Below, piece after piece: positions 10,390 to 27,876 of a stretch of 33,926 nucleotides of DNA. The notes beneath the pieces are model-generated. The model did no database searches. It saw only the letters and a list, made by a program, of their open reading frames with translations, and was not told the origin of the DNA. This DNA is from Methanobacteriota archaeon (lineage in GTDB: Archaea > Thermoplasmatota > Poseidoniia > Poseidoniales > Poseidoniaceae), in assembly GCA_009937205.1 (NCBI GenBank), contig JAACCR010000050.1, positions 1 to 33,926 of the forward strand, given 5' to 3'. The translations under genes and the position numbers were made by a program. Every line of letters begins with the position of its first letter. Positions within the stretch are counted from its first letter, which is position 1.

Positions 10390-13300
10390 ATGACCCATTA
10401 TTCCAAGGTACCCAAGGCGTCTCGCAGTGCCAGCCAAGCAATCTCGCTTGTGCTGATAATGTTGCTTTCTAGCCTGGCACCTATACTGGCATCTCCTGTT
10501 GTTTCTACACATGGATTGAATGAAAGTGCGATATGGCCAAAGGAGGGGCATAACGACACTGGCTGGGTTCAACTCGACACCGTCGGTGCAGGGGTAACTC
10601 CTGGCGCCCAAGGCATCACTGAATGGCAATTAGAGTTCGCTCCAGGTGCAGATTTGTCAAATGTTTCCTTGCAATTAAGAGTAAATGGTAGCGATGGTTT
10701 ACTAATTGAGGAGCCGATTCTTACCGCCTCTGATATCGGAATTAACTTGTTTGATTGGAGAGGACTTGGGATGTTTGGTTCAAACGATTTCTTTGATGGC
10801 TCCAACCCACATTCCAGCCGATTGAACCCAAATAGTGACACCGGCGCAGGGTGGACTCTACCAAGCGATGCTGAAATTACAGAATTGGTATTTGAAGCCT
10901 TAGCACCTGCTGATCCTGCTGTGTCTTTTGAGCCAATAAATCTCGACATTAGAGCTAATGCGATTCATCCTGACGATGGTAGAATGATGGTTGGTGTTAC
11001 AAATTCTGTTGTTGTATTAGATGCAAATAATGATCCACAAATAATCGATATCATCACATTTGAAAATGCTAGTTCTGTTCTTGATATAGCAGTAGATGAA
11101 GTTAATCGCTACCTGATAGTCCTAACCGATACAGATGGAATACATTTCTTGAACCTAGATGACTGTTCTTTAGCGATGATCGTTCCTGCTCCTGTCGTAA
11201 CAGATACATATCAAACAAAATTACTAACACTAAATGGAATGGTCTATTTGTCAGGTTATGGAGGATTATTCCAATATGATGCTGCTGCAAATTCTTGGCT
11301 AAACTTAGCAGATTCTACTGATGCTAATTGGAATGGTGGATTCTCCGTTGACATGATTGAAAACAATGGAATCATCTATGTCAGTTCATGGGAGAATGGT
11401 ATCAACCGGTGGGACATCTCCTCTGCCACTTCCCTCTCTGCTTGGACTACTGCAAATGTATTGCATTCAGATTATATCTGGTCTATTACAGTCACTAATA
11501 ATCAAATTTTATTCGGTTCATATGATAACGGAGTTGCCCGCTTTGATTGGAATTCTAATTTCTGGTTAAGTACTTGGAACTCTGCAAATTGGTTAGCCAA
11601 TGATGATATTTGGGGTGTTGAATCACTCGGCGATCAATTGCTAATCTTGAACGGGGCAAATGTCCATTATTACAATACTACAAGTGGAGTTTTCGGAACC
11701 ACTGATACATTGTCAAGTTATGGCATCTTTGCAGGTAGATCGATGTTTACTTGGCCTTCAAGTGGCTCTCGCGCACCAATGACTGATACAATCCTACTAA
11801 CAGACTATACAGGGAAGATTGTCAAATTAACACCTACTAAGTCCACTCGCTACGATGGTCAAATCCCGATATCAAGTTCACCAAGTGCAGGTGATATGAC
11901 AAATATTGTTGAGTTGGATAATATCCTATTCATCACCAATCCGTATGTTTTGGATAGATATGACATCGGACAATCCAAATGGCTAAGTCCAGTAATCCAT
12001 GGTATGGCTGCTACTTCAATACATACTGATGGCAGTAGTGTATTCATGGGAACTGAAGCAAATGGAATCATCAATTATGCTAAGAATGGTAGCGTAATTA
12101 ATTCCTATTCCAATGCAAATGGAATGTATAGTAATTCCATCACAAATTTTGCAATCAATAATGGAATCATAGTCTCTACTCATCAAAGTGGTGGAATAAG
12201 TATTATCAATCTCTCATCGTCTTCAATTTTGAGTTATGATTCATCTGATGGGATGGACTCGGATTTTCTAAATGATGTTGCTATCCATCAAGATATAGCC
12301 TTTATTGGAAGTGAAGATTCTGGAATTATTCGATATGATATTAGCAATGATACATTTCTCTCATCTTGGATCTCAACTGGCGTTAACGGAGTAGATTACG
12401 CACCTATCGCAGTTGTTGGAGATATACTACATCTAGGACTTTCAGGCTATGGTGTTGCTCGCAAAGACCTAGCTACTGGAGAGATATTAACGCCTTTGAC
12501 TACACGGGGGGGCGTCTTGCCAAGTTCTAACATCTATGCTTTGGAAAGTGATGGTTCTGATCTCTACATCGGAACCCAGCGTGGAGCAATACGCTGGGAC
12601 GGTAACCAAGCAGATAATTTTGTTAGCGGTAGCCAATGGCAAACAAGGCCAAATCAATTCTTTGACTTCTCTATTGATGGAGGGGATTTGTATGTTGGAA
12701 CAAACATTGGAGTTTGTAAATATGTATTGTCGACTATAACTATTGATGATTGTCAAAATGTCCAAGATGGAATGCCAAATTGGGCTGTATATGCTGTCCA
12801 CTCCGATTCTGATTTCGTATATGGTGGAACTCTTTCCGGTGTTGGATTGATTGATATTACAAATTTTGAACATGATTCAAATTGGGGCGAAGGCGCTCAA
12901 AGTGATACTGCTCCTGTGGAAGTAATCGGTACTACAGCCTATATTGGGCTTGATGGAATTGGTGTATTGAGGTATGATATTACCAACAATACATGGCTTC
13001 CTACTTGGACTGTTAATGGGGTATTAGATACAAACGGAATTACCAGTTTAGTGGCTGACATTAGGCCTAACCAAATTTGGATTGGTGGTGATGACGGTTT
13101 CCAATTGATTGACATTGTCAATGAAACCGAAGAATATGATATTGAAAAAACCAATGCTATGTATTCTGGAAATGGCGATCCGTATCAGTTGATGATTCAT
13201 GGAGACACATTATATTTCCATCAATCCACTCAAAGCGACAGCATCCGTAGAATAAACATCTTGAACTTCACTTCGATGACATCACTCGATATTGGAAGTC

Positions 13301-16300
13301 AATTATCAGAAAATAATGGTGATGTTTACGGAATGAATTTCATCGGTGACATCTTGATGGTCGGATTGGCTTCTGGCCAATGGTGGAATGCAGATGGGTC
13401 TGGCGGTATTGCTCAATGGAATGCCAGCAATAATTCATGGGGGCCAAATGTTGAACCTATTGGAGAGATTAACCGAGTAACATCTTACCTTTCATCTGCT
13501 GGTAATCATTGGGTTGCCTGGGGCGAAACTAAATTGGATCTTTACAATAATGGCTCTTTAGTTAATTCTTGGGATGATTCTGTATTTGACTTCCCAATAA
13601 GAGGAATTGTTGAATTTGATGGTGCGACATTGTTCGCGACTGAAGATGGTGTGGCAAGATATAACGAATCTTCTAATTCTTGGCTAACAACTTGGACTGA
13701 AGGTAGTGGATTACCAAATAATGCAGGAGAGAGGTTCTATGACATCTGGACTGATGGTACTGATTTGGTAGTCGGAGGCGCTGACTTCACTAATTGGGGC
13801 GGATTTAGTACTGGTAGGATTTCCCACTTAGATAGTACTGGTACTTGGTCTACATTTACCGGTGGGCAAAGTGGAATGCCAAATGGATATCCAATTTCTA
13901 TGACAATTTGTGGTGGAGTTCTCAATGTTGCTATGTACAATAATTTCAATGGCGGAATTGCAGTAATCGATTTACAAAATTCTACTGCTGGCACTCATAT
14001 TTCTGGAACTTCTTTGGAAGATGATACTCCTTCAGCAGTGGCTTGTGATGGAGTTAATACACTTTACATCGCTTATTATGCTGACGATATGCCTGTTTCA
14101 AAGTATAGTTATCAAACCGGAACTTGGTTGAATGACATAACTTCTCGAAATCACAATATTCCTTCAGACAGAGTGTGGTGGGATGCAATAAATTATCACG
14201 CTGGTAAACTAATTCTAGGACATGGATTGGGTACTTCTGGCAATAATATCATTGGAGGAGGATATTCAGTTATCGCTACATCCGGGAATACTGCGGCTTC
14301 TGCAACGGTAATCACACAAGGCTCATCAGTCACGTCTTTCCAACCTTATGGCCAAGGTTGGATTATTGGACAAGCGGGTGGAACTTCTGGCTATAGCCAC
14401 GTAGACATAGTATCTTCACAAGGGCTAACTCCTTTGATCAAACTGCCTGGACTTGTCAGTGGACAAATAACAAGTATCGCGGGTAGTGCAACAACTATTT
14501 GGGTTACAACCTTTGGACAATCTCAAGGGTTCGGAATCGCTGGAGGAGCTGGTATTCTTCAAGGTGATCGGAATGCTGATGGATCTATTGAATGGGATTA
14601 TGGATGGTCTCTATCCGCACAATCTCGCGGTAATGATGTTGAATTGATCGGAAATGATCTCTATGTTACTACATCACCCGCAGGGTTGTACAAATTAGAT
14701 GTTCAAACTCTACAACTTACCACCTATACTGGAGCATTGCACAACAGCCACTATGGAATGGTGAAAACAGGAAATGACTTGGTTATCGGGTTATCTGGAC
14801 AAGGTAATTCAATACCAGGTGTGCAAGTTTTCAATATTAATTCTCAGACCTTTACTCAAGGGAAGTTAATCGCAGGATTACCATCCCCTGTGATCAATGG
14901 ATTTGGCAGTACTAGTGATGTCATGTACATCGCTACAAATGGTGGAATCGGTAGATGGAATTATACTACAAGTGATTGGATGAATCCAATTACCATACTT
15001 GAAGGATTACCTTCAAACATTGTTGAAGACATATTAGTAGATGGTAATGATATTTGGTTGACCACTCCAAGTGGACTTGCAAAGTACAGCCCTGGGACTG
15101 GAACTGTCACAACTATGACCTCGCAAACTGGATTGTTTGGAACCTCAACTTGGGGCCTAACAATGAAAACCAGTGGTGCTAATTCCACTCTATACGTTTC
15201 ACACGATGGTAAAAGTACGGAAAGACCTGGTGTTTCCAGTTTTGAGACTAGTACGCCTACATTGATTGATACTCATCGCTTTGACCAAATTCCTTCCAAT
15301 ACTGTTTCCGCATTGGCTGCAGATTGGTGGGGATTACATATCGCCACTGATATCGGTCCAATGACGCACTGGAATGGACAAGTTGGTGAATTTGAAGATG
15401 GAATGGCCTCTTGGCAAATTAGCGGGTGGCCTATTACGAGTATGCAAAGTGACGGCGATGATGTTTTGGTTATTACCGAGCAAGGTGCTGCAATAATCAA
15501 AGCACGAACTGCTACACACGCAATAATAAAATCCTGGTTTAAAACCAATACTTCAGATGGAATATTAACTGCCAACAATGTTTGGCTAACCACTGAAAGT
15601 GATGGCCTATGGGGTTATGAAAGAACTGCATCTTGGAATGAATTAGATCGATTTGAAATGCGTCGTGCAATACCACTGAACGCTGGATTTAATATGAAAA
15701 ATTCTAACATTAGTGAGTGGACGCATCCTGGCGCTCAAATCCAATTGGTTGATGTTGACAATCCTGTCAAATTAGATTCCACTGCTGGTTCTGCGGGCGC
15801 GCATGGTTTGCTATTCCAAAATGTACCTTTGACCTTTACCTCAACGGTTGCTGGCGCTGCTACTTGGTCTCGTTCTGTGTCACTCAAATATAATGCTACA
15901 GTCAACTTAACCAGTGACCCTGGACTTGAAAATACCATGCAGAATGCTGTTGATAATGGTGTGATCATAAATGGAACTCGTTATGTCACACTAACATTAC
16001 GTTCACCAAGCAATGGCTCCCTACAAGCAAGATTAGTTTATGATTATATCAAGTTGGAGACTCCTGTTGAAATGACTAATTTGATCGACAGACCTGATGA
16101 TGGCGGGGGCGCGTTGATGGCTGATTGGACACTCGTTCATGATGAAGACTTTGCTCGTTACCTCGTATATGTTAACGACGGCCCATTCGTTACTACTGGT
16201 GGTTCAGCATTAACTGCAGCAGACCTCACTGGAAGAACGATTGACAAAGCGATTTCATTGCATAGCCGTTTGTCAAGCGGAGTAACTACTGCAAACGGAG

Positions 16301-18660
16301 TACCACTTGTTGATGGAACTGAATATTATGCTGTAATTGTCGTTGAATATAATGATGGAAGATGGGGATTAATCTCATCACCGATGGGACCAGCAACTCC
16401 TACAGATGAAGTACCTAATTCACCACTTTGGGCTACTGCTGGACCATATGATGGTGGCCAAGATGGTGATTTAGAAGTTGAATGGGCACGTTGTACTGCT
16501 CTCGATTTAGCAAGTACCCGCATTTACACATCAACATCTCAAATGACTGATATTTTAGGACTTAGCATAACTGCTGACCTTCCACCAAGTGAAGGGAATA
16601 CTACCATATTATCACTTGATGCTGGCAAACCATACTGGTTGGGTCTAACTTGTGTAGATGAAGCTGGTCAAGAAGATTGGCAAAATGCTACGATTATTGG
16701 CCCAGTTGTACCGACTGGTGGACTAAATGATAACACAGCACCTGCTAAATTAGAAAATGTTGTTGCAATAGATACTCCGGATGATGATGGTGGAAGAATT
16801 ACTATCTCATGGAATATTAGTGCTGATGAGGATGGTACTTTCTATGCCATCTTTATGATGATAGGTGATGAAGAAGTTCAGTATCCAGACAATGTTAATT
16901 CCTTTTCGCAAACGGCTATCATAAATGACTGTGCTGAAAATTCAACTATTATTTCCAATATGGATGGAGTTGATCTGCAAGATGGCCAACTTTACTGGGT
17001 TGGCGTTGTTGCTTACGATGATTGGCTCAATGCTAACTTGGATGATGTCGATGTTGTCGGCGTTACACCGTTTAGAAACACGATGGGTTCAGGCTCAGCA
17101 CCGAGTCGAATTGGCGTAATCAATGCCTTTGATCATGCTGATGATGATGGAACCGCAATAGATGTTATTTGGTCTATTTCTGATGCTGATGATTTCTCCC
17201 ACTACATCGTATGGGTTGCAGATAAACCTGTTACAGACCTCTCAATACTTTGGGCTGCAATAGGTGATGATTCAGCAAACTGTGCCTGTTTGAAGGTGAA
17301 TAAGCAATGGATTGATGAAGATAAGAATCCGATTGAAATCACATTGAGTACTGCCCTATATGGGGGAGATTCATTGTTAGATACTACGCCGAAATCGATT
17401 ATGCCAGATGTTGAATTATATGTCACCGTCACTGTTCATGATAACAAAGGAAATGTATTCCTCACCGATTTAGTTCAAGCAACTGTTACTCCAATCGATA
17501 ATTTGAATGATGTTGTTGCACCAGATCGATTACAAGACTTGGAATTAATTGACAAGCCTGCTGATGATGGAACTGCACTATTACTGGACTTTAATTTGTC
17601 TGATGATGGTGATGTAAAGTCATATGAAGTCTATGCAGCGACTTGGGAATTCACTTCTGTTAGCACTGGAGGAGATGGCCCAATCGCTCCAATCGCAACT
17701 TTATCAAGAAACCCAGAATTGCCTCTGTCTATCAAATTGACTGCGGGTGATACACCTGTGGTTCCTGGCCAGATGGTTTGGGTCGCAGTAGTCGTGATAG
17801 ATTCTTCTGGAAACTCCTTTGAAGATAATTTAGTTGTAGTGAGTGCTGCATCTGTAGACGATGGGATTAATGATATGGGAGCCCATTTACCAGATATTAT
17901 TGGAATTAGTTTAGCATGGAATGAAGAAGTAAATATTCTAGTTCAGTGGCAACATTCCTCATCGTCTTCAGTTAGAGGATATCAAATTTATATCTCCGAT
18001 GAAGAATACACGACTACTGATGACGCTGTATTAGTCGGAGAAGTAAAAGCCAGTAATACATTCCTAATCACTCAAAATGGATTTGAGGATCTTGTGAATA
18101 ATACCGCATGGTATGTATCGGTAAGTGCAATCGATGAAGAATATCACAAAGAAAGTGTCAAGCCGATTAAATTAGACGCCTTTGAGGCCGGTAATATTGG
18201 CGGTGGAAATGACGAATCTGGAGCAGAGGATGAAAGCAAGCAATTGGGTTCATATTTGACAACTCCAAATCTCTTAGCCATGGGATTAGCCATTGTCGCC
18301 CTATTCCTAATACTAGCAATTTTCAAGAGTCGGGGCAGTAACCAACGCCGTAGTAAAGATTGGGAATTACAAGAAGCTACATGGGGATTACAAAATCAAA
18401 ATGATGCTGGATGGGATAATGTTCCGAAGGGAACTCCTGCCCCTCCACCTGCAGCCACCGTTACTCAAACTCAATCAAGTGACATATATGCTGCCGCAAA
18501 CAGAGTTCAATCTGATAGTTATGGCCGACCTGCATATCAAAGCCAACAACCGGTGTTACAGCCTGTTATAAACGAGACACTGCTTGATGATTTAATCGAA
18601 AAGCCGGCACAGCAATCTCAACAGAACATTGACACATCATTCCTTGATGACCTGCTGTGA
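10390..18660 (+). CDS. Giant surface protein: signal peptide, many beta-propeller repeats, FN3-like repeats, TM segment, Gln/Pro-rich cytoplasmic tail
   Basis: 2756-aa ORF. N-terminal SASQAISLVLIMLLSSLAPILASP; repeated propeller-blade motifs such as NGINRWDISSATSLSAWTT and NGVARFDWNSNFWLSTWNS; C-terminal TM LLAMGLAIVALFLILAIF followed by KSRGSNQRRSK and the tail. Confidence 0.92.
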   Translation: MTHYSKVPKASRSASQAISLVLIMLLSSLAPILASPVVSTHGLNESAIWPKEGHNDTGWVQLDTVGAGVTPGAQGITEWQLEFAPGADLSNVSLQLRVNGSDGLLIEEPILTASDIGINLFDWRGLGMFGSNDFFDGSNPHSSRLNPNSDTGAGWTLPSDAEITELVFEALAPADPAVSFEPINLDIRANAIHPDDGRMMVGVTNSVVVLDANNDPQIIDIITFENASSVLDIAVDEVNRYLIVLTDTDGIHFLNLDDCSLAMIVPAPVVTDTYQTKLLTLNGMVYLSGYGGLFQYDAAANSWLNLADSTDANWNGGFSVDMIENNGIIYVSSWENGINRWDISSATSLSAWTTANVLHSDYIWSITVTNNQILFGSYDNGVARFDWNSNFWLSTWNSANWLANDDIWGVESLGDQLLILNGANVHYYNTTSGVFGTTDTLSSYGIFAGRSMFTWPSSGSRAPMTDTILLTDYTGKIVKLTPTKSTRYDGQIPISSSPSAGDMTNIVELDNILFITNPYVLDRYDIGQSKWLSPVIHGMAATSIHTDGSSVFMGTEANGIINYAKNGSVINSYSNANGMYSNSITNFAINNGIIVSTHQSGGISIINLSSSSILSYDSSDGMDSDFLNDVAIHQDIAFIGSEDSGIIRYDISNDTFLSSWISTGVNGVDYAPIAVVGDILHLGLSGYGVARKDLATGEILTPLTTRGGVLPSSNIYALESDGSDLYIGTQRGAIRWDGNQADNFVSGSQWQTRPNQFFDFSIDGGDLYVGTNIGVCKYVLSTITIDDCQNVQDGMPNWAVYAVHSDSDFVYGGTLSGVGLIDITNFEHDSNWGEGAQSDTAPVEVIGTTAYIGLDGIGVLRYDITNNTWLPTWTVNGVLDTNGITSLVADIRPNQIWIGGDDGFQLIDIVNETEEYDIEKTNAMYSGNGDPYQLMIHGDTLYFHQSTQSDSIRRINILNFTSMTSLDIGSQLSENNGDVYGMNFIGDILMVGLASGQWWNADGSGGIAQWNASNNSWGPNVEPIGEINRVTSYLSSAGNHWVAWGETKLDLYNNGSLVNSWDDSVFDFPIRGIVEFDGATLFATEDGVARYNESSNSWLTTWTEGSGLPNNAGERFYDIWTDGTDLVVGGADFTNWGGFSTGRISHLDSTGTWSTFTGGQSGMPNGYPISMTICGGVLNVAMYNNFNGGIAVIDLQNSTAGTHISGTSLEDDTPSAVACDGVNTLYIAYYADDMPVSKYSYQTGTWLNDITSRNHNIPSDRVWWDAINYHAGKLILGHGLGTSGNNIIGGGYSVIATSGNTAASATVITQGSSVTSFQPYGQGWIIGQAGGTSGYSHVDIVSSQGLTPLIKLPGLVSGQITSIAGSATTIWVTTFGQSQGFGIAGGAGILQGDRNADGSIEWDYGWSLSAQSRGNDVELIGNDLYVTTSPAGLYKLDVQTLQLTTYTGALHNSHYGMVKTGNDLVIGLSGQGNSIPGVQVFNINSQTFTQGKLIAGLPSPVINGFGSTSDVMYIATNGGIGRWNYTTSDWMNPITILEGLPSNIVEDILVDGNDIWLTTPSGLAKYSPGTGTVTTMTSQTGLFGTSTWGLTMKTSGANSTLYVSHDGKSTERPGVSSFETSTPTLIDTHRFDQIPSNTVSALAADWWGLHIATDIGPMTHWNGQVGEFEDGMASWQISGWPITSMQSDGDDVLVITEQGAAIIKARTATHAIIKSWFKTNTSDGILTANNVWLTTESDGLWGYERTASWNELDRFEMRRAIPLNAGFNMKNSNISEWTHPGAQIQLVDVDNPVKLDSTAGSAGAHGLLFQNVPLTFTSTVAGAATWSRSVSLKYNATVNLTSDPGLENTMQNAVDNGVIINGTRYVTLTLRSPSNGSLQARLVYDYIKLETPVEMTNLIDRPDDGGGALMADWTLVHDEDFARYLVYVNDGPFVTTGGSALTAADLTGRTIDKAISLHSRLSSGVTTANGVPLVDGTEYYAVIVVEYNDGRWGLISSPMGPATPTDEVPNSPLWATAGPYDGGQDGDLEVEWARCTALDLASTRIYTSTSQMTDILGLSITADLPPSEGNTTILSLDAGKPYWLGLTCVDEAGQEDWQNATIIGPVVPTGGLNDNTAPAKLENVVAIDTPDDDGGRITISWNISADEDGTFYAIFMMIGDEEVQYPDNVNSFSQTAIINDCAENSTIISNMDGVDLQDGQLYWVGVVAYDDWLNANLDDVDVVGVTPFRNTMGSGSAPSRIGVINAFDHADDDGTAIDVIWSISDADDFSHYIVWVADKPVTDLSILWAAIGDDSANCACLKVNKQWIDEDKNPIEITLSTALYGGDSLLDTTPKSIMPDVELYVTVTVHDNKGNVFLTDLVQATVTPIDNLNDVVAPDRLQDLELIDKPADDGTALLLDFNLSDDGDVKSYEVYAATWEFTSVSTGGDGPIAPIATLSRNPELPLSIKLTAGDTPVVPGQMVWVAVVVIDSSGNSFEDNLVVVSAASVDDGINDMGAHLPDIIGISLAWNEEVNILVQWQHSSSSSVRGYQIYISDEEYTTTDDAVLVGEVKASNTFLITQNGFEDLVNNTAWYVSVSAIDEEYHKESVKPIKLDAFEAGNIGGGNDESGAEDESKQLGSYLTTPNLLAMGLAIVALFLILAIFKSRGSNQRRSKDWELQEATWGLQNQNDAGWDNVPKGTPAPPPAATVTQTQSSDIYAAANRVQSDSYGRPAYQSQQPVLQPVINETLLDDLIEKPAQQSQQNIDTSFLDDLL
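16060..18160 (+). repeat. About six FN3-like protein repeats within the giant surface protein
   Basis: Repeated pattern: IDRPDDGGGALMADWTLVHDEDFARYLVYV; IDTPDDDGGRITISWNISADEDGTFYAIFM; FDHADDDGTAIDVIWSISDADDFSHYIVWV; IDKPADDGTALLLDFNLSDDGDVKSYEVYA; plus two more divergent units. Confidence 0.75.
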
Positions 18661-22873: not shown

Positions 22874-24157
22874 TCAAGATTTTGCATGGATTTTAAGAAC
22901 GTCTCCATCACTTAATTCATGATCTGCACCAACCACTCTTCTTGTCCTTCCATCCACTCCTTTGATGAATCCGTCTCCTAAGTCAGAATGTACCTTGTAA
23001 GCAAGAGGCTTCGCCTGAATAGCATTCGGAACAACGAAAGCATCTGGTAAAACTTTACCATCACCATCAGTCCAATGTAATTCATCTTGTACTGGATATA
23101 CTACAATGTGGTCTAATTCATCAAAGAGAACTTTGTCAATGATTGTTGCAACGCCTGTTCCTCCATTAGAACTCAAACGTTCTTGCATATGCGAGAGTGC
23201 TTTGATTTGCGCCTCGTTCAATCCTTTGTCTTTCTCTATTGTGAACGAGTCTTGCCCAGTGGTGTAATTGATCAAACCTGCTGATTGGGCCCTACGTAGA
23301 GCCAATTCAACATCTGCCATACAAGCAACTATTGTTCCATTTGCTGTAATTTCCTTTAGAACTCCTTTAGGAGCGATATCGCATTTATTTGCTGCAATAT
23401 GAATTGGGAATAAGTAAATGCGAACATGTACTGCCAGTTTCGTGATTATATCATCTTGCCAATCCCAAGGTTGTCCACAATCGCCAACTTCATTCCTGAA
23501 ATCATCAAATGCGTTAGCAACCAAATTTATAGTAGCCCCTAATCCAGTTAATCTTTCATGAATAAATGAAATTAAGCCCTTCTCACCTTCAGCTTGAACT
23601 CTTCTAACACCTCTTTGCCAACCATCGTTTAGTAAACCGGAGATCCAAGCATCTAATTCATCTGCAAGAAACTCAATCTCTTGATTAATTCTCAACTGAG
23701 CATCTTCTTTTGTTTGACCTGGTCCGAGCGGATTTCCTTCAATATCTGTTGATCCTGCTGCATCAATTACCTGAATTAACGCATCACTATTTGCTAAATC
23801 AGCTAAGAACGCGTTACCTCTCCCTTTGCCTTCACTGGCACCAGGAACTAAACCTGCTACATCGACTAAGAAACATGGAACTAGTCTACGGAATCTAATA
23901 CAACTCCCTGTTCTTGGCTGACATATACTGCCTTGACGTGGGTCGTCTTCGCCGATTGGTGGTAAGCGCCCTTCGGACTCCAGTCGTTGTCTGATATCCT
24001 TGCATGGGCATGGTTTACGCGCTTCAATCAAAGCAACGCCTACATTTGGTTCTATAGTACAAAATGGATAGTTTGCAATGTCAACCTTTGCAAGTGTTGC
24101 AGCGCTGAAAAATGTTGATTTACCAACATTTGGTTTTCCTACAAGACCTATTCGCAT
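22874..24157 (-). CDS. ychF: YchF-like OBG-family GTPase/ATPase with C-terminal TGS domain
   Basis: MRIGLVGKPNVGKSTFFSAATLAKVDIANYPFCTIEPNVG, LVDVAGLVPGASEGKGRGNAFLADLANSDALIQVIDA, C-terminal TGS-like ...VVGADHELSDGDVLKIHA; Cys-rich insert KPCPCKDI. Confidence 0.92.
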   Translation of the reverse strand: MRIGLVGKPNVGKSTFFSAATLAKVDIANYPFCTIEPNVGVALIEARKPCPCKDIRQRLESEGRLPPIGEDDPRQGSICQPRTGSCIRFRRLVPCFLVDVAGLVPGASEGKGRGNAFLADLANSDALIQVIDAAGSTDIEGNPLGPGQTKEDAQLRINQEIEFLADELDAWISGLLNDGWQRGVRRVQAEGEKGLISFIHERLTGLGATINLVANAFDDFRNEVGDCGQPWDWQDDIITKLAVHVRIYLFPIHIAANKCDIAPKGVLKEITANGTIVACMADVELALRRAQSAGLINYTTGQDSFTIEKDKGLNEAQIKALSHMQERLSSNGGTGVATIIDKVLFDELDHIVVYPVQDELHWTDGDGKVLPDAFVVPNAIQAKPLAYKVHSDLGDGFIKGVDGRTRRVVGADHELSDGDVLKIHAKS

Positions 24158-24172
24158 TGGGGAATTCCCCCT

Positions 24173-26311
24173 TCAGGCCTCTGTGATAAGGCTGACTAAA
24201 TCTTTCTTTGTTCCTGACGTATCTAGGCCTAAAGAAGTTGCAAGTTCAACTAATTCAGCCTTCTTCATCTTGTTGAGTTGGGCTTTGGAAGGGACTTCAA
24301 CTTCCGATGTTGATTGTTTAGCAGCATTCGCTTTGCGAATCTTTGCAATTGCAATCGAAAGTTCTGGTAAGTTGATTTGTCCATCTCCGTCAATGTCGAT
24401 AGCAGCGATAAGGGAATCCATTTCCCACGGTGGTAGGTTTGCAACCTTTGAACTCTTCAATGCCATTTGGAATTCATAAGCATCTACCATTCCAGAATTA
24501 TCTAAATCAATGGACTCGAAAAATTGGAAAATGGTTTGCCCTGAATCTGCTAAATAATCTGCAAGCATTGTTAATTCATTACCAGTCTCTTTTGATTGTT
24601 CTTCTTCAACAACTTCTTCTTCTTCTGGGAATTCAGTGACTTCATCATCGTGTAGTGCTGCGGAAACTGCGATTACAGTGCTTCCACCTTCTTTTTCTTC
24701 TATTTCCCCTACTACCAGCGTGGTATCGACTCCAACTCCTCGTCCTAGCAGTGTGCGAATTGTTGTTGTTCCATCTCCTAGATTGTAGGTATCAATATCC
24801 GAAACAGATGTTTGAGAATGGTTTGATGTGATCTTTGAAGCACTTGTTCTTATGACTACTAATGTGGCCAATATTGCACCTATTGCAGTGAAATAGAATA
24901 ATGCTGCTCCGACTAAATAGAATCCTTCTGTTTGAGCAACTGCATCTTCAACACCTGAATTTGCAACTGCTTGCATTGTAAAGTCTCCAATCAGATTTGT
25001 AATTGTAGATGCAAAGCCTCCGAATAAAACAAACCAAACTGTTAGGTTGGCTTTACTTGGTTCGGAAAGTTCTTTGTTACAAGCCAATGGATGTGAAATG
25101 TAAGCACCTGATAAGATCATCAAACCACCAACAGTCCATAGGAATCCCATGTCAAGAGTTGTTGCCATATCTCCAAGTTGTCCTGTTCCGAGGAATACAT
25201 CCATTCCAGTGAAGAACGCTCCAATTGCATAGAGAGGTAGCAATACCATTGCAAGTGTTGCCGCAAGAGCCCCTGGATTCTTGACGATTGCAGATGTATT
25301 GCCACTAGCGGTGAATAGTAAGTTGACGCTACCTGCGATTATTGGTAGTAGGCCAAGTGTCATTACGATTGCACCAAGGTTGAGTAATGTTGTAGAAGCA
25401 CTCGCTGAAGCAATGAAGAATGGTGGAAGGGTAATGAATAGCAAGAATAGATTCGCTTGGCGCATTGAGGCAGACCAAATTGGTGTACCTGATGTCATCG
25501 GGATAATGTGGTATGCTGCAGAGAATATTAGAGCCAAGATTACCCAAGAGCTACCCATTTGACCCGCAAGCCAAACTATTTGGGTTGAGCCGGCAAGTTC
25601 GCCAAAGAATCCTAAGAACATTGACAAAATAAATGTCAGTAGAGCGAATATCAGGAACCAAGCACTGGTGGAAACTTCTTCATCGCCCCTATTTGCAACT
25701 GTTAGTAAGACGTTTACAAATAATCCAGCAACTATCATTGCAACTGCCAATTTGGAGACTGCATCGATTAATACAATATTTATTGCACTGTCTATGTCTT
25801 GCCCTAGCAGCCCTAATAGCGATGGTAATAATGCAGCAAATATTGTTGTTAAGGTAAACAAAAATGCTGAAAGTGATGCGCTTGCTTCACTTGCCATTTT
25901 CCCATTGCTGCTACGTGAAATTGAAACAAGTCCTGCACCAACAAGAGTTGAAAATACTGCAACTCCAAGGAATTTGGTAGTGGTTGCTGTTAATGCATCA
26001 CCATTATCGTATGCCCATCCAATGCTTGCTAGAGAATCTAGCGCTGTTGGATCGTAGTGATGCCACAGTCCGAGGAATCCACAAATTGAAGAGAATACGA
26101 ACCATAGCATGCCGAAATTAATCCATGTTCTAGCACCGCTACCTGGCTTGCTATCGAATAAGTCCACTAAACCTGCTGGGGCCTTGTTGAGGAAGAATAG
26201 TGAAAATTGGCGCATTGCCTCTGACATACTGCCTATTCCTTTTTCTGTGTAATTCGCGGTAAACCACATTGCGATTACTGTTATTGCAATTCCAAAAAAT
26301 ACTGATTCCAT
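24173..26311 (-). CDS. Multi-pass membrane protein with C-terminal EF-hand pair and SAP motif; TM region possibly a degenerate heme-copper-oxidase subunit I-like fold
   Basis: 712 aa with a dozen or more hydrophobic segments. Two canonical EF loops DLDNSGMVDAYE and DIDGDGQINLPE. SAP-like C-terminus LNKMKKAELVELATSLGLDTSGTKKDLVSLITEA. Confidence 0.85.
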   Translation of the reverse strand: MESVFFGIAITVIAMWFTANYTEKGIGSMSEAMRQFSLFFLNKAPAGLVDLFDSKPGSGARTWINFGMLWFVFSSICGFLGLWHHYDPTALDSLASIGWAYDNGDALTATTTKFLGVAVFSTLVGAGLVSISRSSNGKMASEASASLSAFLFTLTTIFAALLPSLLGLLGQDIDSAINIVLIDAVSKLAVAMIVAGLFVNVLLTVANRGDEEVSTSAWFLIFALLTFILSMFLGFFGELAGSTQIVWLAGQMGSSWVILALIFSAAYHIIPMTSGTPIWSASMRQANLFLLFITLPPFFIASASASTTLLNLGAIVMTLGLLPIIAGSVNLLFTASGNTSAIVKNPGALAATLAMVLLPLYAIGAFFTGMDVFLGTGQLGDMATTLDMGFLWTVGGLMILSGAYISHPLACNKELSEPSKANLTVWFVLFGGFASTITNLIGDFTMQAVANSGVEDAVAQTEGFYLVGAALFYFTAIGAILATLVVIRTSASKITSNHSQTSVSDIDTYNLGDGTTTIRTLLGRGVGVDTTLVVGEIEEKEGGSTVIAVSAALHDDEVTEFPEEEEVVEEEQSKETGNELTMLADYLADSGQTIFQFFESIDLDNSGMVDAYEFQMALKSSKVANLPPWEMDSLIAAIDIDGDGQINLPELSIAIAKIRKANAAKQSTSEVEVPSKAQLNKMKKAELVELATSLGLDTSGTKKDLVSLITEA

Positions 26312-26324
26312 ACATCACACCTCC

Positions 26325-26597
26325 TCAATCCAATAGGACCTCTCCCAATAAGTTGGAAACTATCACAGCAACTCCTGCGATCAATCCAATCAAGTAATAC
26401 CAAATCCCTGAACCACCCAAGTTACCAATCAATGGTATTAGGTCGCTGAGTAATGGAATGGAATCCCATCCAAATACATTAGAAAATAGCGCTAATAGGC
26501 CAATTACGCCCACTAAAAACAAAGTCAATAGTACGCGGCTAGTTGATGGTTCTCCGTTTCCGGTGGTCACATCTGGTAGTGTCGTAGTGTTCGTCAT
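26325..26597 (-). CDS. Small two-TM protein adjacent to the EF-hand membrane protein
   Basis: ATG at 26597 with GAGG upstream; TM segments VLLTLFLVGVIGLLALF and GIWYYLIGLIAGVAVIVSNLL. ORF track start at 26642 is less likely. Confidence 0.65.
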   Translation of the reverse strand: MTNTTTLPDVTTGNGEPSTSRVLLTLFLVGVIGLLALFSNVFGWDSIPLLSDLIPLIGNLGGSGIWYYLIGLIAGVAVIVSNLLGEVLLD

Positions 26598-26709: not shown

Positions 26710-27876
26710 TCACAATGAACGCAAATTCGCTAGAACGTTGCCTCGGCGACTTTTTGAAATTCCTAAAGGAGTAGGCAATGTCTCTTCTAAGGAAATTTCA
26801 GTTGCCCAAATTGTTTGGCATTGGCATTCTAGTCCATCGAATTCTCGCAAATCTCCTGAAACTGCATAACGCTCTATTGCAGCAACGACATGCGAATCAC
26901 ATTCACCGCAGTTATGGGCTCCACGAACTTTTCCTCCAGCCGTCGGGTGAACGATAAGGCGGGAAATTTGATCTGCATCACCATTGAATCCACCATCGGG
27001 ATGGATGTAGGGGTGGGCTCGCTTGATCATCTCGACCAGTGACCATAACCATGGAGGGCGATACTCGTTATTGCGGTGTAATCTATCAATGATTGTACCT
27101 CTTTGGATATTCATTGGATTAACGGAGATCTCATCGCTCTTTTCTGCAACTGCTTCAATCCACTTTACACTATGATTCAATGCATCAGCTTCAGACATAA
27201 ATGGTGGTTTAAACATTAGGTATGTCTTTATTCTGATATTGAATTTTTGCATATTAACAACTGCCCGCTCCCAAGATTTTGTTGTAAACCCTTTATTGAC
27301 ATGAAACCTTAATACTTCATCATCATAGGCTTCTAAGCCAATTGCTACTGCGAAATTTTGATTGATTTTAGTTGCCCATGCTAATTTTTCTTCGGTCATT
27401 TGTTCACAGCGACTCTCAACTATCAATTCCTTACCGAGACGTTGACAATCTGCTAATACGGTCTCTTGGAACTCCACAGGGATTTCCCTGTCTTCAAAGA
27501 GACTACCTGAAGTGTAAACCTTAACCATTTGATGGTCTTCAAAATCATTGAATTTCTGTTTTGCATATTGCCACTGTGAATGTAGGTTTTCATTGGTAAC
27601 ATCATCACGTGTGTCATTGAAATAACCGCAAAAAGTACAACCTGAACTCCACCACCAATGGCAACCTTTGGTTCTAAGAATAACTGTTACTGCGCTGCAT
27701 GGCGTACCATCTGCTGTTGTTTCTGGAGTGTAATATACGGTTGCTGGTTCATCTGCATCCCATGATTGTTGGCGTTCTTTTGCCCAAGGGGTATTCGCTG
27801 GAGCTTTTATCAAATCATGAATACGGACGCCTTTGTTACTCTCACCGAGCAAAGTAAGTGAAACCGGCTTGTTCAT
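26710..27876 (-). CDS. Radical SAM protein, archaeosine biosynthesis RaSEA-like
   Basis: VTVILRTKGCHWWWSSGCTFCGYFND cysteine motif; KVYTSGSLFEDREIP, ELIVESRCEQMTEEKL, VAIGLEAYDDEVLRFHVNKGF, ISVNPMNIQRGTIIDRL as in Elp3-like radical SAM/RaSEA proteins. Confidence 0.8.
   Translation of the reverse strand: MNKPVSLTLLGESNKGVRIHDLIKAPANTPWAKERQQSWDADEPATVYYTPETTADGTPCSAVTVILRTKGCHWWWSSGCTFCGYFNDTRDDVTNENLHSQWQYAKQKFNDFEDHQMVKVYTSGSLFEDREIPVEFQETVLADCQRLGKELIVESRCEQMTEEKLAWATKINQNFAVAIGLEAYDDEVLRFHVNKGFTTKSWERAVVNMQKFNIRIKTYLMFKPPFMSEADALNHSVKWIEAVAEKSDEISVNPMNIQRGTIIDRLHRNNEYRPPWLWSLVEMIKRAHPYIHPDGGFNGDADQISRLIVHPTAGGKVRGAHNCGECDSHVVAAIERYAVSGDLREFDGLECQCQTIWATEISLEETLPTPLGISKSRRGNVLANLRSL

Follow-up and report, generated by a model that had tools for sequence, protein, structure and literature searches.

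The window, i.e. the whole 33,926-nucleotide stretch of DNA analysed here, carries on its reverse strand an ORF for a 712-residue membrane protein, which lies between a small two-TM protein and a GTPase and whose features are collected in Table 1. From its AlphaFold2 (AF2) model 13 membrane-spanning helices can be read, with most of the TM part at pLDDT 80-94. A previous sequence-only reading described this ORF as a long multi-TM region followed by an acidic linker, two canonical EF-hand loops and a SAP-like motif; each of these elements is present. The EF-hand pair matches EF-hand_7 (residues 593-652, 35.1 bits against a Pfam curated cut-off of 30, 1.7e-8), with both loops canonical, and the terminal motif matches SAP (PF02037, residues 679-711, 32.0 bits against a curated cut-off of 23.9, 9e-8). 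What that description overlooked is that the TM region itself belongs to a recognisable family, namely subunit I of the heme-copper oxidases.

Table 1. Features of the CcoN-like locus and its conserved neighbours
Feature	Residues	Coordinates	Strand	Basis and remarks
Whole ORF, 712 aa	1-712	24173..26311	(-)	ATG start; CcoN-like and heme-less, carries the EF-hand pair and the SAP motif
Extra N-terminal TM helix	2-23	26243..26308	(-)	AF2 model; outside the CcoN alignment, which begins at residue 43
Twelve-helix heme-copper-oxidase subunit I core	58-491	24839..26140	(-)	hhalign, PDB profile match, Foldseek; all ligands to heme and copper lost
Helix VIII superfamily motif PxxxxxxNxxxT	P323, N330, T334	25310..25345	(-)	Kept; column-wise in 39/39 of the family and 7/7 CcoN
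Conserved motif following the last TM helix, SDIxxYxLxxGxTTIRxLLGRGVGVDT	503-535	24707..24805	(-)	Alignment of relatives; cytosolic side predicted
Acidic linker EFPEEEEVVEEEQ	560-572	24596..24634	(-)	Sequence; AF2 confidence low
EF-hand pair, loops 602-613 DLDNSGMVDAYE and 639-650 DIDGDGQINLPE	593-652	24356..24535	(-)	Pfam, ligand conservation, tail model
SAP motif	679-711	24179..24277	(-)	Pfam, own-genome search, helices in tail model
Two-TM partner (putative), about 90 aa from MTNTTT		26325..26597 (ORF to 26642)	(-)	13 bp upstream of the CcoN-like gene
RaSEA-type radical SAM protein (archaeosine)		26710..27876	(-)	TIGR01210 1.2e-91; conserved upstream neighbour
YchF/YGR210-related GTPase		22874..24157	(-)	NF007171 4.9e-126, PF08438; conserved downstream neighbour, 15 bp

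A Pfam scan of the 712-residue protein alone gave no significant match, COX1 included, in the TM region. A profile of 23 relatives searched against the PDB recovered the cbb3 subunit I chain 6xkw_n (E 3.5e-6) as the sole match at E up to 10, and Pfam COX1 matches were obtained for 3 of 23 relatives (best 5e-15); one relative scanned whole (L038) matched COX1 above the cut-off at 4.5e-15. A BLASTP comparison of one relative with a Sinorhizobium cbb3 subunit I yielded an E-value of 5e-16 across 420 columns. In profile-profile comparison with hhalign, 39 diverse relatives aligned colinearly over residues 43-493 with a CcoN set of seven alphaproteobacterial sequences (probability 99.1, E 4.4e-19; E 0.22 for the reversed CcoN alignment used as a decoy). 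A Foldseek search of the AF2 model against the PDB returned 20 matches at E <0.001, every one of them the subunit I of a heme-copper oxidase or NO reductase; CcoN came first, with a TM-score of up to 0.79 (by target length). Two other candidate affinities were considered: the aa3-type COX1 as nearest kin was rejected, with a non-significant profile comparison (E 0.13), and NnrS (PF05940) gave no match, whether for the window protein (E up to 1) or for 23 relatives (E up to 5). The TM part is thus, with near certainty, a relative of heme-copper-oxidase subunit I, closest to the CcoN of the cbb3 type.

Subunit I of the oxidases is known from textbooks as a metalloenzyme, and it is the metal-holding residues that this family has lost. 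Seven alignment columns are His in 7/7 CcoN and none is a conserved His among the 39 relatives: the helix II column of the low-spin heme holds A/F/T/Y, that of helix VI R/K/H/Q (His in 4/39), those of helix VII S/T and A/E, and those of helix X V/L/M and H/M/Q/T (His in 10/39 in the latter). The bis-His ligands of the low-spin heme (helices II and X) are therefore missing, as are the proximal His of the high-spin heme and the three His of CuB, conserved His being absent at and beside the helix VI, VII and X positions; the residue standing opposite the CcoN ligands in these three helices shifts by one or two positions or more between alignments, but in none of the candidate columns is His conserved. 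The most His-rich columns anywhere in the family reach 56% (H268) and 51% (H84), no Cys column is conserved in the diverse family alignment, and the only in-membrane Met column stands at 62%. The helix VIII motif, which as a regular expression is also found in 29 of 31 true Thermoplasmatota COX1 proteins, is retained. In-membrane residues invariant across both families that carry the protein (see below) include few polar ones (N330, T334, Y473) and none that are charged. The TM part evolves under strong purifying selection (dN/dS about 0.065 against L008 and L009, which among the five close relatives compared are the most diverged), so the gene is not decaying, and on this ground a pseudogene was rejected. 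The protein is hence a pseudo-oxidase, in which the twelve-helix scaffold is kept under strong purifying selection and all heme and CuB ligands are lost. It is very probably not a terminal oxidase and, because the residues that hold heme and copper are absent, the oxidase fold seems to have been co-opted for a role other than respiration.

The soluble tail is of a predicted Ca2+-binding type. Across 107 aligned rows from MGIIa, the subgroup to which the window belongs, the ligand positions of the EF loops are near-invariant (D602 107/107, D604 104/107 and E613 106/107 in the first; D639, D643 and E650 each 107/107 in the second), so the resemblance is not due to chance. Modeled by AF2 on its own, the tail reaches a mean pLDDT of 82.8 and matches calmodulin and centrin in the PDB by Foldseek, and both the EF-hand pair and the SAP motif were recovered by searches of the own genome. 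With the topology set from the heme-copper-oxidase orientation plus one extra N-terminal helix, the 39 relatives have on average 11.9 K/R per protein in loops predicted inside and 1.1 in those predicted outside; given this bias the C-terminus is predicted to be cytosolic. Two outcomes that would have told against the sequence-only reading, missing HMM support for EF-hand or SAP and a predicted extracellular C-terminus, are thus not seen.

Poseidoniales are an abundant order of marine archaea, and the family is confined to them, usually as a single copy beside a normal COX1. Three taxonomic families were read, from kinship and record titles, as MGIIa (Poseidoniaceae; f1), MGIIb (f2) and MGIII (f3). 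Some match was found in 170 of 171 MGIIa genomes, several incomplete ones matching in the EF or SAP part only, and across the class the TM profile matched 249 of 293 genomes, with a single match in nearly all of them. Among the matches listed for a draw across the phylum, all came from MGIIa or MGIIb and none from the MGIII-like family or other Thermoplasmatota families; MGIII genomes that carry COX1 are without the CcoN-like family. A scan of genome contigs recovered 150 relatives, the best 80 of which are titled Poseidoniales/Poseidoniaceae, Poseidonia or uncultured Euryarchaeota, bar one Rhodobiaceae MAG. The genome of the window itself, 82% complete, encodes one ordinary COX1; CcoO/FixO (PF02433) gave no match in this 82% complete assembly, with positive controls. 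A second PF00115 match in an MGIIb genome (G201; L212 397-2070, reverse strand) is a divergent protein of 558 aa with histidine-rich stretches, encoded downstream of an ORF that by eye resembles the copper-binding oxidase subunit II. Considered as a ligand-bearing missing link, it was set aside as a different protein outside the CcoN-like family.

The tails show a variable architectural pattern. In the set of 147 relatives read, an EF-hand region is present in all full-length MGIIa proteins, with two loops by a strict pattern in most and one strict loop or degenerate loops in a few (L177, L178-L181); two proteins of genus g11 (L175/L176) have two EF-hand pairs. EF-hands occur in 0/10 MGIIb proteins, from which it appears that Ca2+ sensing is an MGIIa elaboration. 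SAP is missing from most MGIIa members read, and in MGIIb it is found, without EF-hands, in five of the ten proteins (L165-L169), the other five having neither domain. Three proteins of genus g3 (L045, L046, L053) bear HhH repeats; the same modules (IKGVGPFIEEKLNALGI) are seen in L242 and L244, large proteins with a predicted TM segment from the same genomes. The tree of the TM domain, some deep forks of which are weak, fits a single gain of the EF-hands in MGIIa and a scatter of SAP over both families. Thus, the order multi-TM, EF-hand, SAP, singled out in the sequence-only reading, exists in this ORF but is not the defining unit, the EF-hands being restricted to one family and SAP being a loose add-on. 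A 767-aa version (L057 8001-10301, and L010) has a third EF-loop match and no SAP and ends in QTHSC; it may reflect a local duplication or a frameshift.

The gene neighborhood is strongly conserved. The two-TM protein adjoins the CcoN-like gene on the same strand in 117/117 loci and is scored as upstream in 112; the other five are classed differently by the distance rule, probably on account of an ORF that, called from its first start codon, overlaps its neighbor. In the loci inspected singly the gap between the two genes is at most 18 bp. The two-TM protein could be assigned to no known family and shows a conserved LPDVTxGxxEP motif with invariant G13, E16, P17, W66 and G71. Its derivation from CcoQ/CcoP was tried and rejected: one member matched FixP_N weakly at E 0.024, but profile comparisons with CcoQ/CcoP scored about as poorly as reversed decoys. 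The RaSEA-type radical SAM gene lies within 500 bp upstream in 114/117 loci and the YchF-related GTPase adjoins the CcoN-like gene in 112/117; none of the neighboring genes read is respiratory. Elsewhere in the window, a 2756-aa ORF (10390-18660, forward strand) has no Pfam match at E up to 0.001.

SAP is appended widely in these genomes: each has about 7-10 proteins with the motif, including eL32, eS1, FKBP26, Pus10 and membrane peptidases. The own genome has 10 SAP proteins, among them eL32, eS1, FKBP26, Pus10 and a TM-anchored M28 peptidase (L220, L222, L221, L228 and L224, respectively), and 14 control genomes almost never match. An EF-hand pair also sits at the C-terminus of an APC-type amino acid permease of the own genome (L232, contig C59), a second membrane protein with a Ca2+-type tail.

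These observations lead to the tentative proposal that the CcoN-like protein and the two-TM protein encoded upstream of it form a membrane complex that would carry out no redox chemistry. In MGIIa the predicted cytosolic C-terminus would act as a Ca2+ switch: binding of Ca2+ to the EF pair may alter the docking of the tail and the conserved post-TM segment, and the complex would thereby be a Ca2+-responsive membrane scaffold or sensor recruiting cytosolic partners. The adaptor, most plausibly toward RNA or the translation machinery, would be the variable tail with its SAP or HhH modules, because SAP sits on eL32, eS1, Pus10 and FKBP26 in these genomes and the genes next door encode an enzyme of tRNA modification and a GTPase of the YchF type. 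That the CcoN-like protein works with the two-TM protein is probable. The statement as a whole, a non-redox Ca2+-responsive scaffold or sensor complex with a two-TM partner and a partner-recruiting tail, we put forward somewhat short of even confidence, and the choice of scaffold or sensor over transporter more hesitantly still. The scaffold role draws on the gene neighborhood and the other SAP carriers, and these neighbors could simply have housekeeping functions. Least secure is the RNA link, which is not a core function, since most of the MGIIa members read and half of the ten MGIIb proteins are without SAP. A broader version is doubtful, by which a single conversion shared by the whole order Poseidoniales turned the oxidase fold into a two-subunit device that is redox-inactive, regulated by Ca2+ and able to bind RNA or ribosomes through interchangeable SAP/HhH tails; it would amount to a non-respiratory use of the oxidase scaffold.

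The main rival is a Ca2+-regulated transporter or channel, in which an ion or small molecule would pass through the emptied heme/copper cavity, with the EF pair controlling the gate from the cytosolic side. The multi-TM core is strongly constrained, the permease of the same genome likewise ends in an EF-hand pair, and oxidases of this fold carry proton paths, all of which speak for such a reading. However, the scarcity of invariant polar residues in the membrane and the lack of charged ones would be unusual for an ion transporter, though other cargo is unaffected by this argument, and the neighborhood gives no hint of a substrate; we consider this rival rather unlikely. The idea taken from the sequence-only reading, that Ca2+ or membrane state is coupled directly to nucleoid DNA through SAP, profits from SAP and EF-hand matches above the Pfam cut-offs and from a tail predicted to be cytosolic. 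It is nevertheless quite improbable, in view of the absence of SAP from most MGIIa members read and of the other identified SAP carriers, which are mostly ribosomal, tRNA-related or membrane proteins.

Two further alternatives would keep the protein closer to respiration. As an accessory subunit or assembly factor it might attach to the aa3 oxidase, or else to the cytochrome b/Rieske proteins, which are unusual in MGII, and tune them by Ca2+; the subunit I fold and the ordinary COX1 of the same genomes speak for this, as does the lack of a canonical bc1 complex in MGII (PMC6336850), whose electron transport chain has low-affinity cytochrome c oxidases (PMC6336850). Yet the neighboring genes read, which are not respiratory, and the MGIII genomes, which have COX1 and lack the family, argue against such a role, and we judge it unlikely. 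That the protein is still a heme protein with other ligands at shifted positions is least probable, to the point of being remote: the column facing part of the HxH pair of helix X is still His in 10 of the 39 relatives, but across the diverse family no column is more than 56% His, Cys is conserved nowhere and Met forms a single in-membrane column, at 62%.

Poseidoniales-specific protein modules and families with calcium-binding domains have been reported (PMC9258230), without, in the text consulted, an identification as oxidase relatives. In the open-access literature we found no description of a ligand-less heme-copper-oxidase relative fused to EF-hands. While keeping the oxidase scaffold, the family lost every cofactor ligand and is now a standard component of an abundant order of ocean archaea, with predicted calcium sensing added in one branch, MGIIa; it would thereby show what the oxidase fold is capable of without metals and offer a concrete entry to Ca2+ signaling in uncultured archaea.

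Among known systems, CcoN/FixN of the cbb3 (type C) oxidases is the best structural match. It has in common with the window protein the twelve-helix core, colinear over residues 43-493, and the residues W70, R133, T204, W218, W247, P277, S280, P323, N330, T334, P408, W426 and G431, whereas the His positions conserved in the seven CcoN sequences are all lost. The window protein further differs in its extra N-terminal TM helix, the family in its added EF-hand/SAP/HhH tail on the predicted cytosolic side, and the two-TM partner is unrelated to the CcoQ/CcoP of CcoN systems. The aa3-type COX1 proteins of the same archaea, encoded at separate loci, share the superfamily fold and the helix VIII motif but keep the HPEVY, HHM and HxH motifs. 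The cNOR/qNOR enzymes form the second-best structural group (TM-score by target length 0.68-0.71 for two cNOR entries), a lower match than that to CcoN, and here too the ligands are absent from the window family. With calmodulin-like proteins the tail has in common the canonical paired EF loops; in contrast to these, its EF-hands are fused to a membrane protein and come as one pair, or as two in genus g11.
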